Program-made: the position numbers and the translations under genes
In this document: piece by piece, positions 9,807 through 18,159 of the stretch
How the letters are laid out: each line of letters starts with the position of its first letter
How positions within the stretch are numbered: the first letter of the stretch is position 1
The notes under the pieces: generated by a model
What the model saw: the letters and a program-made list of their open reading frames with translations, nothing else
The model's database searches: none
Told to the model about the DNA's origin: nothing
Origin: a virus
Strand: one strand, 5' to 3'
Virus record (IMG/VR): IMGVR_UViG_3300017756_000153
Location: 1-20,382 of that record
DNA length: 20,382 nt

Positions 9807-12800
9807 ATGAGTGAACCCTGTTATACTGGAGGCCCAGAAGCCCTTATAAACAACGCTAACGCCCTTGAAGCACTATTAGGCGCGGATAAGTTTAGTAAAA
9901 TACGAGATGTCGTTAATGGCATCACTAAAAACTTAGAAGAAGAACTACCCACACTCACTGAGGATAACTTAAAAGAAGTGTTCGCTACAATGCGTGCGCG
10001 TGAGGCAGCTACAGGTGGAAACCCTGAGATTTATAAGAGCGCACTCCAGAACATCACACTAAAGAATCCCGATGGGACTAGAGCAGATGATGTGTTTGAA
10101 GCAATCCGTTCCGTGATGTTACACCAACATGTTTACACCCAGGGGATGCAAGTAAGCACGAACAAGATGATTGGGTTGGCTGAACGGATAACAAACGCCA
10201 AGTCCAAGGGGTTGACCGCAAAAGAGGTAGAAGGTTTAGAGGTTCAGTTTATCTCCGCACAGGCACAGCTACGGAACTACATGGCACATCGTTCATCCAT
10301 CGGTTCTGGGTTGAGTTTTGCCTTCTCCCAGAGACGCAAGGCGAACGTGGTTAGTGCGACAGAAGCCTTGGATGGTTATGTGGAGTCAATCACCAAAAAC
10401 TACAAGGACGCTTTTGAAGGCGAAGAGTTTCTTCAAGGAGTTGAACGCAACAGTAAAACCAAAGAAATCCTTGAGAGTCAGATCAAAGACCTGGCCGAGG
10501 ATGCTGACATATCACCTCACGTTCAAGCCGCAAAGGATGCGGTGACGGAGACCCAAGCGGATCTTGATAACTACCTTAAGACACGCGAAACCGGCGTAAC
10601 GAAGACAGCTGATGAAGCTGGAGCAACGAAGAAGAAGAAGAAGACCGAAGTGGATCAGACGGAAGTGGATCTTCAAGCCAAGGTGAAAGCAGCGAAGGAG
10701 GATGTTACTCAGTTAACACGACTCAAAGACCTTCAAGATAAAGTTAAGGTTGAAGAGATGGACGCAAGCGCACTCCAAGCGGAGATTGACAATCTTAAGC
10801 CCGCCCAAGGGAAATCCCTTTCAACTCTCCAACGCCAGCTCACTAAACTCAAAAAAGAAAAAGCATCTCCAGAGGAAATCGAGGATCTTACTAATCAGAT
10901 CAAGGAGGTTAATACCGCCACGAAAACAAGAAACACCCTGCAAAAAAGACTAGACAACCTCAAGAACAACAACAAAGAGATTTCTAAGGTTGAAGCAGAG
11001 ATCGAACAGCTAAAAGGCAAGGTAGACAAGATTAAGGAACTTAACCAACTGGAAAAGACCTTAGCTGCACTCAAGAAGCCTAAGAGCGACATCAAGAAGA
11101 CCAAAGAGGAGATCGAGAAGATCAAGAAGGCCCGAGAAGAAGAGGCCAGACGTAAGATCGAAGCATCGGAAATCACAACCGAAGCCCAATACAAGAAATT
11201 CATCAACCAGACTCTAGGAGCTAGGGATGCAAAAACCTTGGCTAAACGTCTTACATTCGCTGATAAGATGGGAAAAGCCGAAGAGTCCGTAAGGCACGCT
11301 GCAAACATGTCAGAGAAAACCGGGTTCCATAAGACACTGGATATGGGATTGCAGTGGTTCACAGGAAGTCTCCTGAGTGGTCCTCCAACATTCGTCCTTA
11401 ACGCAGTAACACCTATCCTTTCCAGAACTCTTCAACAACTTGAGCTAGCCACAGGCGCACTGATGACAGGTAACATGCCTCTCTTCAAAGCCTCCCTAGA
11501 TCTACACAACCTATTCTACGGGACACGCGATGCCTTCAAAATGGGGAACGCATCCCTCCAGATGGATAAAGACGCACTCTTAGGGGGGCAACGGATGTTT
11601 GACGAAGGTGATGACTTCGGCGCGTTTGCGTCTGCCAACTTCAAAAACGTCTTCCTGAGTAACGAACCGATGTCGAAAGTGATGGACACCATTAACTTCC
11701 TTACAAGGCTCCCCAACAGGATCAATGGATCGGTTGACTCATTCAACAAAACAATGGCAACCATGAAGTATCTTCGGACTCACTTTACGGCTGACGCAAT
11801 CGCCAAGAAGATTCCGCATGGTGAAGTAGAAGAATACGTTCGTAAGAATGTCCAAAAGATGTTCAACAAGGACGGATCGCTTTACTCGGAAGCTAGGATG
11901 ATGAAGGCAGCGGTGAAGCAAGCCAACGACGAAGGTCTTAGTCGCTCATCGGACGAAGCTACCATCAAGTTCCAACAAAGAGTTGCAGAGATTATTGAAG
12001 GTCGCCTCAAGGATCTAGGGCCAGATAAAACTAACGCCGATACCTTATCACGCACGGCTGAAAAGTTTGCCCGTGAAAGCACCTTCACTGATGAACCAGG
12101 TAAGTTCACTCAACTCATCAAACAAGGCTTGAACCACATGCCCGTGTTTAAGTTCATCATGCCGTTCGTAAGCACCCCAATGAACATCCTTCACTTCGGT
12201 TGGAGACGCACTCTTCCAGGCGCGATGCTTGATGGAATGATTCCCGTTCTTAAAAAGACCAAAGACGCAAGAACGAAGGAATGGGCTGAACTCACTCCTA
12301 TGGAGCAAGCAGCATCAAGAGGACGTTATGCAACCGCAGTGGCTTCCACAGGGGCTATGATTTACTTCGCCTCCCAACACGGTGACCGCATCACTGGGGG
12401 TGGACCAAGAAACCGACAAGAACGGAAAGCATTGATGGCGACCGGGTGGCAACCTTACTCGTTCGTTATGAAGGGCGAAGACGGCTCAAAGACGTATGTT
12501 AGTTATGAACGAGTAGATCCGTTGGCAACCATGATCGGTCTTATCGCTGACGCAGCGGAGTTCACAAAGATGAACCCTGATGACAACGAAAGTTTTGCCG
12601 AGTTGTTTTCAGCGTTGTCCTTCACCGTGGCAGAGAACATGACCGACAAATCATTCCTTCGTGGTATTAACAACATTCTTAACATCACTCAAGAGCCGGA
12701 CATTTACATACCGAAGACGTTCAAGGACATCACCTCTGCGATGGCAGTGCCTATGTTCATCGATAAAATCAAGAACGTAGATGGTGAGCAAATGATCCGC

Positions 12801-14477: not shown

Positions 14478-14633
14478 ATGAACCCAAATCTTAACACACC
14501 TATGATCGGGGTCACCGGATTGATCGCTAACATAACCCTTGAACAAGTGAACACATTAGTAGCTATCGCCGTAGGATTAACAACCTTAACATACATGGTC
14601 ATTAAGATTTACCACGCACTAACCAAACGATGA
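14478..14633 (+). CDS. Holin-like small membrane protein
   Basis: A 51-residue protein: MNPNLNTPMIGVTGLIANIT, then one clear membrane segment (about residues 24-43, VNTLVAIAVGLTTLTYMVIK), then a short basic tail ending HALTKR. It sits between the fibre and small terminase genes, exactly where T7 has its gp17.5 holin (67 aa). A holin would form inner-membrane lesions that time lysis and let the amidase reach peptidoglycan. The TGA stop overlaps the next ATG (ATGA). One membrane segment with a positive C-terminus is compatible with a holin, but any small membrane protein would look similar. Confidence 0.72.
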   Translation: MNPNLNTPMIGVTGLIANITLEQVNTLVAIAVGLTTLTYMVIKIYHALTKR

Positions 14634-14860
14634 AAGACGAATCACGCAGCATTAAAATGGAGGGTCTCCAGGATCTCTTGATTGACACCTTCATCGACCG
14701 TATCCAAAGTGGAGATGACACCCCTGCTCTCTTAAACGCTGCCCGACAGCTACTTAAGGACAATAACATCAGTGCAGCAGTCACCAAGGGATCACCTGTA
14801 GAGAACCTTGTGAACCTCCTTCCCTTTGATGATCCGACCGATCAAGTAGTCAACGAATGA
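14630..14860 (+). CDS. Small terminase subunit, T7 gp18-like
   Basis: A 76-residue acidic helical protein, near T7 gp18 (89), lying directly before the large terminase as in T7. The segment LLNAARQLLKDNNISAAVTK resembles the T7 gp18 LYNAINKLLDRHKFQIGKL region. The small subunit recognises the concatemer and regulates the ATPase/nuclease subunit. It has ATGA overlaps with the genes on both sides, which suggests coupled translation in fixed ratio. Confidence 0.85.
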   Translation: MKDESRSIKMEGLQDLLIDTFIDRIQSGDDTPALLNAARQLLKDNNISAAVTKGSPVENLVNLLPFDDPTDQVVNE

Positions 14861-16530
14861 GCGATCTTCCTAAACAACTCCAAGACTTCCGCAACTTCCT
14901 TTGGATGACTTGGAACCACCTGTCACTTCCGGCTCCCACTCCTATCCAATACGAGATAGCCGAGTGGATGCAACACGGTCCACGCCGAGGTGTTATCCAA
15001 GGGTTCCGAGGTGTAGGTAAGTCATGGATTTGTTCAGCCTTCGTCGTTCACCAACTACTCCTTGATCCACAGAAGAACATCCTGGTGGTCTCCGCATCCA
15101 AGAACCGCGCTGATGACTTCTCTACGTTCACCCTCCGACTCATTCACGAGATGGAGATCCTTGGACACCTAAAGCCCAACGACAAACAACGCTTCTCCAA
15201 GATCTCCTTTGACGTTGGCCCGGCTCAAGCCTCACACGCCCCCAGCGTCAAGTCCCTCGGTATAACATCCCAGCTCACCGGTAGCCGTGCAGACATCATT
15301 GTGGCTGATGACGTAGAGGTTCCCAATAACTCCGCGACCCAATCCATGCGGGACAAGCTCTCGGAACAGGTCAAGGAGTTCGAAGCTATCCTTAAGCCCA
15401 ACGATGACAGTCGCATTCTGTTCCTTGGGACTCCACAGTGCGAGGACAGCATCTACAACAAAATGCTCGAAAGGGACTACGAGACTCGCATCTGGCCCGC
15501 AAAGAAGATCGGTGTGGAGAAGTCCGAGAAGATCTATCGAGGTAACATAGCAGCTTCGTGTATTGATGATGACCTCGTAGGATTGCCCACAGAACCTACA
15601 CGATTCTCGGAGATTGACCTAGCCGAACGTGAAGCATCCTACGGTAAGTCAGGGTTCGCTATGCAGTTCATGCTGGACCCCAAGCTGTCCGACTTGGATC
15701 GTTATCCATTGAAGATCAATGACTTAATTGTTATGGACATTGATGACACCACGGCTCCCGAGAAGCTGGTCTGGGCACAGTCACCTGAGAACGCTTGGGA
15801 CAACACAGTGCCTAACGTAGGGTTCACCGGGGACCGCTTCTTTCGCCCCATGAAGGTCATCGGTGATAACATCCCCTTCACTGGTAGTGTGTTAGCCATT
15901 GACCCATCGGGACGAGGCAAGGACGAAACCTCATGGGCAGTCGTAAAGATGCTCAACGGGTATCTCTATGTGACCGATGCTGGCGGTATGCAAGGGGGAT
16001 ACGATGATACCGTCTTAAAGGTTCTCACGATGAAGGCCAAGATGAACAACGTGAATGTGATTGTTGTTGAAAGCAACTTCGGTGACGGCATGTTCGTAGA
16101 GATCCTAAAGCCCTATCTATCAAAGATTTACCCCGTAACCGTCGAAGAGGTTCGTCATAACATCCAGAAGGAGAAGCGCATCGTGGACACCCTGGAACCC
16201 GTGATGAACCAACACAAGCTGGTCATTGATCCAAAGGTCATTCGGAACGACTACGACACCGCCCAGAAGTATCCCATCGAGACCCAACTAAAATACCAGT
16301 TGATGTTCCAGATGTCTCGCCTGACACGCGAAAAGGGAGCCTTAACACACGATGACAGACTTGACGCACTATCTATGGGAGTGGCATACTGGGTCGAACA
16401 GATGGCACAAGATGCCGACATTAAGATCTCTGAACGAAAAGAGGAGGACATCCAAAGACAGCTTCAAAAGTTCAAGGATTCCTACTACAAGATTAACACT
16501 AATCAAGCACCCTCAACCACATGGATATAA
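14857..16530 (+). CDS. Large terminase subunit (ATPase/nuclease), T7 gp19-like
   Basis: A 557-residue packaging motor. The ATPase domain has Walker A GFRGVGKS (residues 49-56), Walker B IIVADDVE (147-154) and a coupling motif LFLGTPQ (188-194). The RNase H-like nuclease domain has VLAIDPSGRGKDETSWAVV (catalytic Asp 349), VIVVESNFGDGMF (Glu 405) and THDDRLDALSMGV (Asp 499/500). Length is close to T7 gp19 (586). It pumps DNA into the prohead and cuts concatemers. The start overlaps TerS by 4 bp, and the stop overlaps the amidase gene by 10 bp. Confidence 0.97.
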   Translation: MSDLPKQLQDFRNFLWMTWNHLSLPAPTPIQYEIAEWMQHGPRRGVIQGFRGVGKSWICSAFVVHQLLLDPQKNILVVSASKNRADDFSTFTLRLIHEMEILGHLKPNDKQRFSKISFDVGPAQASHAPSVKSLGITSQLTGSRADIIVADDVEVPNNSATQSMRDKLSEQVKEFEAILKPNDDSRILFLGTPQCEDSIYNKMLERDYETRIWPAKKIGVEKSEKIYRGNIAASCIDDDLVGLPTEPTRFSEIDLAEREASYGKSGFAMQFMLDPKLSDLDRYPLKINDLIVMDIDDTTAPEKLVWAQSPENAWDNTVPNVGFTGDRFFRPMKVIGDNIPFTGSVLAIDPSGRGKDETSWAVVKMLNGYLYVTDAGGMQGGYDDTVLKVLTMKAKMNNVNVIVVESNFGDGMFVEILKPYLSKIYPVTVEEVRHNIQKEKRIVDTLEPVMNQHKLVIDPKVIRNDYDTAQKYPIETQLKYQLMFQMSRLTREKGALTHDDRLDALSMGVAYWVEQMAQDADIKISERKEEDIQRQLQKFKDSYYKINTNQAPSTTWI

Positions 16531-17231
16531 AAGACGAACTAAACGAGGCAATCAGGCTTCTTGAAGGAATACGCTCTAGGATCGCTTCTGAGGGCCTTTT
16601 GGATAATTCTGGAGGTCACACTCCAAAAATCTCTAAAAACGCACAGGAACGCATCCTCGTGCTTGCAGTGGGGCATTCTAGGGAGCTTGATGCGGGTGCT
16701 GTGGCTTACGACAGCGAAACCTACGAATGGCACTACAACACCAAGCTCGCCCACAAGATCAAGGAATACCTTCCAAGCCACATCAATACAACCATCATCA
16801 ACCACTACGAAGGGGACTCCTACACTGAGTCAATGCGATGGCTTAAAAGAACCGTTGACCCCCTCAATGCTGACCTCGTGTGTGAACTCCACTTCAATAG
16901 CTTCAGCAACCCCAACGTGAAAGGCCACGAGATGCTCCACTGGAACTCCTCCTTGAAAGGCTTAATCGCCGCCACCAACATCAACGATGCCATGAACGAA
17001 GACTTCCCAGGGAACACCGACCGAGGAGTCAAAAAGGTAACACACGGTGAACGCGGTGCTGGATTCCTTTACGGACCCAAGGCTCCCTGCGTGATCATTG
17101 AGCCGTTCTTTGGGTCAAACCCCGATGAATGGGAGGCTTTTGGGGAGACCGAAACCACCTTCAACGCCCTTGCAAAAACACTTGCACGGGGAATCTCTAT
17201 AACACTCTCTTACTCAGGGACTAATAAATAA
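16521..17231 (+). CDS. N-acetylmuramoyl-L-alanine amidase (Amidase_3), endolysin
   Basis: A 236-residue zinc amidase. About 42 N-terminal residues (a charged helix and a linker) precede the catalytic domain. Visible motifs are VLAVGHSRELDAGA (Zn ligand His 52), TYEWHYN (probable Zn ligand Glu 69), NADLVCELHFNSF (Zn ligand His 124) and VIIEPFFGSNPDE (catalytic Glu 194). The family cleaves the bond between MurNAc and L-Ala in peptidoglycan. No signal peptide is seen, so export would need the holin-like protein encoded upstream. It overlaps terL by 10 bp. T7 instead has an Amidase_2-type lysozyme (gp3.5) in its early-middle region, so this phage places a different lysis enzyme next to packaging. 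The N-terminal helix could be a wall-binding or regulatory element. Confidence 0.92.
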   Translation: MDIKDELNEAIRLLEGIRSRIASEGLLDNSGGHTPKISKNAQERILVLAVGHSRELDAGAVAYDSETYEWHYNTKLAHKIKEYLPSHINTTIINHYEGDSYTESMRWLKRTVDPLNADLVCELHFNSFSNPNVKGHEMLHWNSSLKGLIAATNINDAMNEDFPGNTDRGVKKVTHGERGAGFLYGPKAPCVIIEPFFGSNPDEWEAFGETETTFNALAKTLARGISITLSYSGTNK

Positions 17232-17263
17232 CACCCATAATAGGGAGGAAAGAAATAGCCCCT

Positions 17264-17425
17264 ATCTTAAAGATTATCTCTGAGATTTTTATTATTAATA
17301 ACAACAATAACTATCCCTCTTAGAGACATCTCTGAGATAAAGCTCTAAGATATTGATTATTATTAATATTAATAACAACAAACACAGAGAGGATCTCTAA
17401 GACATCTCTAAGACATCTTAAAGAG
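17264..17425. repeat. Array of 11-bp near-palindromic repeats in non-coding gap
   Basis: The 212-bp gap 17232-17443 holds no gene but is filled with copies of an 11-bp unit close to ATCTCTRAGAT. They occur at 17264-17274, 17276-17286, 17317-17327 (inverted), 17328-17338, 17341-17351, 17393-17403, 17404-17414 and 17415-17425. ATCTCTGAGAT occurs exactly twice and ATCTCTAAGAC exactly twice. The copies form three clusters spaced by about one helical turn, separated by AT-rich spacers that share the 14-mer TATTAATAACAACA (17293-17306, 17367-17380). An 8-bp inverted pair TCCCTCTT/AAGAGGGA (17314-17321, 17421-17428) brackets the last two clusters. Position after the terminase/lysis genes suggests a genome-end, packaging or processing region. 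Confidence 0.8.
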
Positions 17426-17443: not shown

Positions 17444-17731
17444 ATGCAACGTAACTCCAACATCCCAGAGTCAGCTAAGGATCGCCTTAAGCTAGCCTTG
17501 AGTATTCTTAACGAACACTTCGATGATGTCCTGGTGGCTGTGAATCACAGGGAGACCTGTAACATCCATGTGGAGTCCCCAACGCCTTATGCTGCCCTCG
17601 GGATGCTTCCGACTGTCCAAGGGAAGCTACGGGAGTCTGTAGGACGCAACGAGTTGGCTCAGAGCATGCGTGAAGAGGGAGGAGATTATGGATTGTTATT
17701 TGATGAAGAAGACAATGAGGAGCCGGAATAG
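17444..17731 (+). CDS. Small acidic hypothetical protein
   Basis: A 95-residue protein I do not recognise. The N-terminal half looks helical (ESAKDRLKLALSILNEHFDD), followed by VLVAVNHRETCNIHVES, a Pro/Gly stretch, a second helix (GKLRESVGRNELAQSMREE), and a very acidic tail (FDEEDNEEPE). It is isolated between two non-coding regions, 18 bp after the repeat array, with no Shine-Dalgarno at ATG 17444. Acidic tails of this kind occur in phage DNA mimics and host inhibitors, but nothing here establishes that. It lies at the presumed junction of late and early genome arms, so it could be the last gene of one or the first gene of the other. Confidence 0.65.
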   Translation: MQRNSNIPESAKDRLKLALSILNEHFDDVLVAVNHRETCNIHVESPTPYAALGMLPTVQGKLRESVGRNELAQSMREEGGDYGLLFDEEDNEEPE

Positions 17732-17733
17732 TT

Positions 17734-17763
17734 TTGTTACAAAAATCTGAAGGGGTATATATA
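17734..17763 (+). promoter_or_regulatory. Sigma70-like promoter candidate
   Basis: TTGTTA (17734-17739) is followed by 16 bp and then TATATA (17756-17761), within the run TATATATA (17756-17763), so spacing of 16-18 bp is possible. The -35 box lies inside a 13-bp palindrome TTTTGT-T-ACAAAA (17732-17744), which could be a repressor site. It is placed to drive the early-type genes from 18160 through a long leader. It is sequence-based only, and its use depends on an unknown host sigma factor. Confidence 0.4.
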
Positions 17764-18063
17764 GCTCAGCGCCGCGAAATTCCCCCCGCGACCCTCCCAG
17801 TAATGACATTGTAACTACCGATTGCCGCGCTTTTTAGCAAGGGGGGGATAGTCACTGGGGATTCACGACGTGAGCAATTCATAGATAGGTAATTGTAGAG
17901 ACACTATGAAAGTCTTTGCATGCGATTGGATGCACCGGGGGAGTGTTATTGACCAAGGGGAACCCCCACAATCGGAATTGTCGCTTTGCCAAGGCTTTGT
18001 GCATTTCCGCTTGTTTTTGTCGTGTCACCCCTTTTGAAATGTGAAATCCTCGTAACACACTCA

Positions 18064-18103
18064 AAGCCAACACCTTAAGCCAACCTGTCATACAACCTGT
18101 GTA
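18064..18103. repeat. Three imperfect 12-13 bp direct repeats upstream of early genes
   Basis: AAGCCAAC occurs at 18064-18071 and 18077-18084 (13-bp step), and CAACCTGT occurs at 18081-18088 and 18093-18100 (12-bp step), giving three overlapping imperfect copies in phase with about one DNA turn. They lie 57-96 bp before the first early-type ATG. They could be operator or iteron-like binding sites; the short length leaves chance possible. Confidence 0.4.
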
Positions 18104-18159
18104 AAAACTTAAAGAAAACACTGGCCATTGCTCTGATAATCGACAATACTGCCTTCGTT

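Follow-up and report, generated by a model that had tools for sequence, protein, structure and literature searches.

A near-palindromic repeat array in the putative concatemer-junction region of a T7-like marine virus

Downstream of the packaging and lysis genes of a T7-like marine virus lies an array of eight short, near-palindromic repeats, which we read, with a probability of about one half, as an SRR-type (right-end) short-repeat element of a T7-type concatemer junction: a protein-docking array that would serve concatemer processing and packaging. The source is a 20,382-base IMG/VR record near Ayaqvirus S45C18, and this whole stretch is referred to as the window. From the architecture and conservation of the array and from a nearby terminal-repeat edge box, all of which can be read directly in the sequence, we infer protein binding and a role in processing or packaging. 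The near-palindromic units, spaced by about one helical turn within clusters, may be sites for cooperative binding by a multimeric phage protein, the first candidate for which would be, as a guess, the small terminase. The bound array could mark the junction on replicated concatemers and could help to load the terminase or to process the right end; transcription from a phiOR-like promoter would run through it.

The array and its genomic setting

The gene order is small terminase (terS), large terminase (terL), amidase, phiOR-like promoter, array, a conserved gene for a 95-residue protein, and edge box. The gp18-like small terminase (14630..14860, plus strand) matches PHROG 891, terminase small subunit (E 4e-11), and Pfam DNA_Packaging_2 (E 5e-14), the gp19-like large terminase (14857..16530, plus strand) matches PHROG 38 (E 1.7e-113) and is 89% identical to that of Ayaqvirus S45C18, and the N-acetylmuramoyl-L-alanine amidase, an endolysin (16521..17231, plus strand), matches Pfam Amidase_3 (E 5e-19). 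The conserved 95-residue gene (17444..17731, plus strand) has homologues in about 40 relatives with identities down to 33–36%, and throughout the lineage it separates the array from the inferred terminal repeat. PHROG and Pfam searches with its product gave no confident family match; the protein family has the motif EHFDDVVVAV..NPYAGLGMLPTIQ and an acidic tail. As a candidate array binder the protein was set aside: its AlphaFold model is poor (pLDDT 60) and too weak for a fold search.

The array comprises eight non-overlapping units between 17264 and 17425, all found by consensus scan within two mismatches of ATCTYWRAGAT and seven of them within one: ATCTTAAAGAT (17264..17274), ATCTCTGAGAT (17276..17286), CTCTTAGAGAC (17317..17327), again ATCTCTGAGAT (17328..17338), AGCTCTAAGAT (17341..17351, absent from most relatives), ATCTCTAAGAC twice (17393..17403 and 17404..17414) and ATCTTAAAGAG (17415..17425). 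The unit starts are 12, 41, 11, 13, 52, 11 and 11 bp apart and form clusters of two, three and three with within-cluster steps of 11–13 bp, separated by two AT-rich spacers (17287..17316, 17% G+C; 17352..17392, 22% G+C). When the same 260 bp were shuffled 2000 times by a dinucleotide (Markov) model, 0.91 units on average and never more than five occurred within two mismatches, and never more than two within one mismatch. This bears out the earlier note, which had counted at least eight units near ATCTCTRAGAT in three clusters at this spacing. A pattern search across the whole window, which the note had also proposed, returned 27 matches versus 11 expected, a number reached in none of 100 shuffles, with a pile-up at the array only. 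Scored by unbiased 8-mer clustering, the array shares top place in the window with a coding repeat at about 10801–11200, a Lys/Glu-rich repetitive stretch in a 1194-residue putative internal virion protein. Unit cores are enriched in the gap left of the edge box (8 versus 0.3 expected in the window).

The suggestion that a protein could bind successive copies on one DNA face holds within the clusters. Across them it does not: a best-period fit to the helical phase between clusters is no better than for random cluster gaps (p about 0.34), and we rejected a single face over the whole array because the between-cluster phase is at chance level.

Upstream of the array, the phiOR-like candidate promoter for a phage RNA polymerase, AAATAACACCCATAATAGGGAGG (17226..17248, plus strand), agrees with the T7 consensus at 16 of 23 positions, the top match in the window (runner-up 15) and a score that taken alone is possible by chance in 20 kb. 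The candidate is kept in all close relatives and occupies the position of phiOR in T7 and T3. S45C18 and three relatives have a variant, CCCATARTAGG, just upstream of a middle gene in syntenic position. Several relatives also have a second promoter-like site, RRCCCATARTAGG, directly upstream of a middle gene (loci L138–L141 and S45C18 20554, minus strand). The AATAACAACAA stretches, set aside as promoters, are of low complexity and occur as two exact copies, in the array only.

This setting raises a serious rival, which we regard as a good deal short of probable: the array may belong to a replication origin, in which the phiOR-like promoter together with AT-rich DNA carrying iterated sites would start DNA synthesis, the units binding an initiator or aiding melting. 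T7 RNA-polymerase promoters with AT-rich sequence start DNA synthesis, and the array, which follows immediately on the promoter candidate, has about 27% G+C versus 47.6% and ranks with the 160-bp stretches of the window that are richest in A+T; a promoter followed by AT-rich DNA is the layout of a phage RNA-polymerase-primed origin. The nearby phiOR-like promoter and the extreme AT-richness make an origin role a real alternative, one that is absent from the earlier note. Against it, the primary origin of T7 lies elsewhere, in the gene 1.1 region, we know of no iteron-type initiator protein in the T7-like family, and similar repeats occur beyond the terminal repeat, a place at which they would be superfluous for an origin.

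Recurrence and conservation of the array

The junction reading gains from the relatives, where the 900 bp to the left of the edge box were searched without bias for the 8-mer with the strongest clustering. Most lineages carry five to nine copies of this 8-mer, versus about 3.2 by chance, 300–550 bp left of the box; the units are CTCTGAGA here, ATCTTAGG in S45C18 and TATCTTAGAG in L081, L073 has TAACTTAGAG nine times at exact 10-bp steps, and L076 has ATACTCTAAG at 10-bp steps. In three lineages related units stand in tandem at 10-bp steps. From lineage to lineage the unit drifts, with a step that is often 10–12 bp, and the gap is enriched in a common core of type CT-N-AG or CTTAAAG (in L076, 12 versus 1.1 expected). 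The array returns at one position in lineages with large terminases of 73–100% identity. The search of related genomes for the same unit at this place, as the earlier note had recommended, thus returned similar arrays in most of them, with units that differ by lineage. Some close relatives lie near the shuffle maximum by a mismatch-limited 8-mer score, yet have seven units by consensus scan. Weak arrays or none were found in the Roseobacter phages CRP-125 and CRP-171 and at loci L054–L056, L061 and L072, and HTVC019P has no room for an array because only 17 bp lie between its last gene and the repeat. The element is therefore not essential to the T7-type packaging mode.

In this lineage the arrays keep a fixed distance to a conserved cut-site box but vary in unit word and step (10 to 13 bp), and some related phages have none. 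The features kept across this natural series are position, near-helical-turn spacing and a core of the CT-N-AG type, and the series supplies test pairs with which the protein that reads the arrays could be sought. A further, doubtful reading is that the arrays are a fast-changing address label, in which a lineage-specific unit word and a matching phage DNA-binding protein would let each phage in a mixed infection pick out its own concatemers when packaging or replicating DNA; array and binder would in that case make up a specificity pair, something that has not been described in T7-like phages.

Among 13 aligned sequences of close relatives the units are better conserved than the spacers (0.89 versus 0.82; 4 of 161 rotations as good), and the spacers are exchanged wholesale between two unrelated versions; the first spacer is unrelated sequence in most close relatives. 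Both spacers switch together between a TTATTAATAACAACAATAAC type and a GGAGATAAAAATAACAATCC/TTTATTATTTTTTATCC type (compare L008–L020).

The same comparison bears on the improbable reading that the array is a transcription element, acting in RNA transcribed from the phiOR-like promoter (as terminator, processing site or pause site) or controlling the 95-residue gene. The array does lie between a promoter candidate and a gene, and as RNA the region folds better than its shuffles (z about −2.6), but near-palindromic repeats fold by construction, no T run follows a GC-rich stem, and the spacers are freely exchanged. The alignment of relatives gave no covariation support (term +0.26), with three compensatory pairs only, located in the AT-rich spacers, and an Rfam search of the array region returned sub-threshold miRNA hairpins only; an RNA hairpin as the main explanation was rejected for want of this covariation. 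Kept units, swapped spacers, within-cluster steps of 11–13 bp and absent covariation together point to double-stranded DNA sites that would be read by a protein.

Such sites might also form an operator array for a phage regulator, for example a MarR-like repressor of temperate relatives, which we consider less probable still: the units are near-palindromic and relatives do have MarR-like regulators and integrases, but in the four near-complete relatives searched the dense unit cluster is confined to the junction site and is not found at early lysogeny genes, which led us to reject a MarR operator, and it is the packaging junction that forms the conserved context. The gap might also simply tolerate a tandem expansion that is selfish or neutral; this would suit the lineage-dependent unit and the relatives that have no array, but it is the least probable reading given the recurrence at one position and the units kept while spacers are replaced.

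The terminal-repeat edge and the repeats beyond it

The reading as a junction element depends on where the genome ends. A terminal-repeat edge box, AAAAATCTGAAGGGGTA (17741..17757, plus strand), was identified by homology to phages with annotated ends and is close to invariant among close relatives. Its counterpart in T7 (AAAAATCTGAGTGACTA^TCTC), in T3 (AAAAATCTGAATGGGTA^TCTC) and in HTVC019P (AATTATGAGGGGGTA^TCG), whose record has an exact 162-bp end repeat, ends precisely where the annotated terminal repeat starts, and in gh-1 it lies within a few bases of the annotated start; LUZ100 is a weak case, in which the annotated repeat start does not align with the box and a subsequent GTTCCCCCC motif does. 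Because the box matches the termini of T7, T3, HTVC019P and gh-1, the terminal repeat of this phage probably starts at 17758, which is 333 bp to the right of the array (junction by alignment AAAAATCTGAAGGGGTA^T), and would span 17758..18062, the left edge being set by homology and the right edge being an upper bound. The contig itself continues across the inferred junction. Immediately past the inferred repeat start, the right ends of relatives' contigs reach about twice the density found before it and several times that found further along; this rise after 17758 agrees with a physical end and is only suggestive, as the hypervariable neighbouring region could also break assemblies. The inferred repeat (17758–17990 and its counterparts in relatives) is hypervariable right after the edge box even in close relatives, as if exchanged by recombination. 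The box allows terminal repeats to be located in metagenomic contigs without read data.

To judge from these homologies, the array region is a T7-type concatemer-junction region, with terS, terL and amidase upstream and the edge box downstream, a possibility that the earlier note had raised. With the array in this region and arrays at the same place in most relatives, neither of the outcomes that the note had named as refuting a junction element is seen. The idea that the array occupies the place equivalent to the T7 repeats, beside the terminal repeat, survives in part: it is near the ends, but 333 bp and the 95-residue gene lie in between.

To the right of the inferred repeat lies an SRL-like stretch, AAAGCCAACACCTTAAGCCAAC ... 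AACTTAAAGAA (18063..18116, plus strand), which includes a unit at 18106. AAAGCCAACACCTTAAGCCAAC (18063) shares 20 of 22 positions with T7 SRL, a match that none of 1000 shuffle pairs equalled, and CCTATCTTAAAGATTA matches T7 SRL CCTATCTTAAAGTTTA at 15 of 16 positions (nominal p 0.024). Repeats are thus present on the left-end side, but the units are few and do not form an array by the unbiased score. These matches also qualify the claim that the unit differs from the CCTAAAG type of T7: the main unit is indeed near-palindromic, but two of the eight array copies are CTTAAAG, and there is the CCTATCTTAAAGATTA match.

Comparison with known systems

Ayaqvirus S45C18 (AP013544) and close IMG/VR contigs share with this phage the gene order, the promoter candidate, the array position, the 95-residue gene and the edge-box position. 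They differ in the unit (ATCTTAGGAT/GATCTAAGGAT), in an insert, CCCCGAAGG, and in many steps of 26–38 bp, which do not fit a single DNA face. The CCCCGAAGG inserts are repeated in the array (L003 6240–6400 and similar loci) and read on the opposite strand as CCTTCGGGG, a typical tetraloop hairpin; the T7 terminal repeat contains a CCTTCGG hairpin. The right end of LUZ100 has, in this order, a large terminase, a phage promoter (phi8), a run of CCTCAAG-like units at 12-bp steps and a 244-bp terminal repeat, but its roughly four CCTCAAG units are not above its shuffles and neither amidase nor 95-residue gene is present there. Iteron-type replication origins resemble the array in that AT-rich DNA holds repeats spaced by about one helical turn, but no Rep-like initiator gene was seen beside the array.

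The closest functional comparison is with SRR and SRL of T7 and T3. A search of the open literature found no paper testing the function of T7 SRR/SRL or phiOR, and to our knowledge the function of these short repeats is not established. In both cases the short repeats follow the large terminase and phiOR or, here, its candidate counterpart, lie close to a conserved edge box of the terminal repeat, and flank that repeat on both sides; CTTAAAG copies and the 20 of 22 SRL match add to the resemblance. The main unit here, however, is near-palindromic ATCTCTRAGAT at 11-bp steps, whereas the T7/T3 unit is CCTAAAG at about 13-bp steps; the right repeats of T7 and T3 lie between the last gene and the terminal repeat, whereas here the array lies to the left of a small intervening gene and the SRL side is short. 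Because unit and exact position differ, we do not claim strict membership in T7 SRR; the claim that the array would work like these repeats stands.
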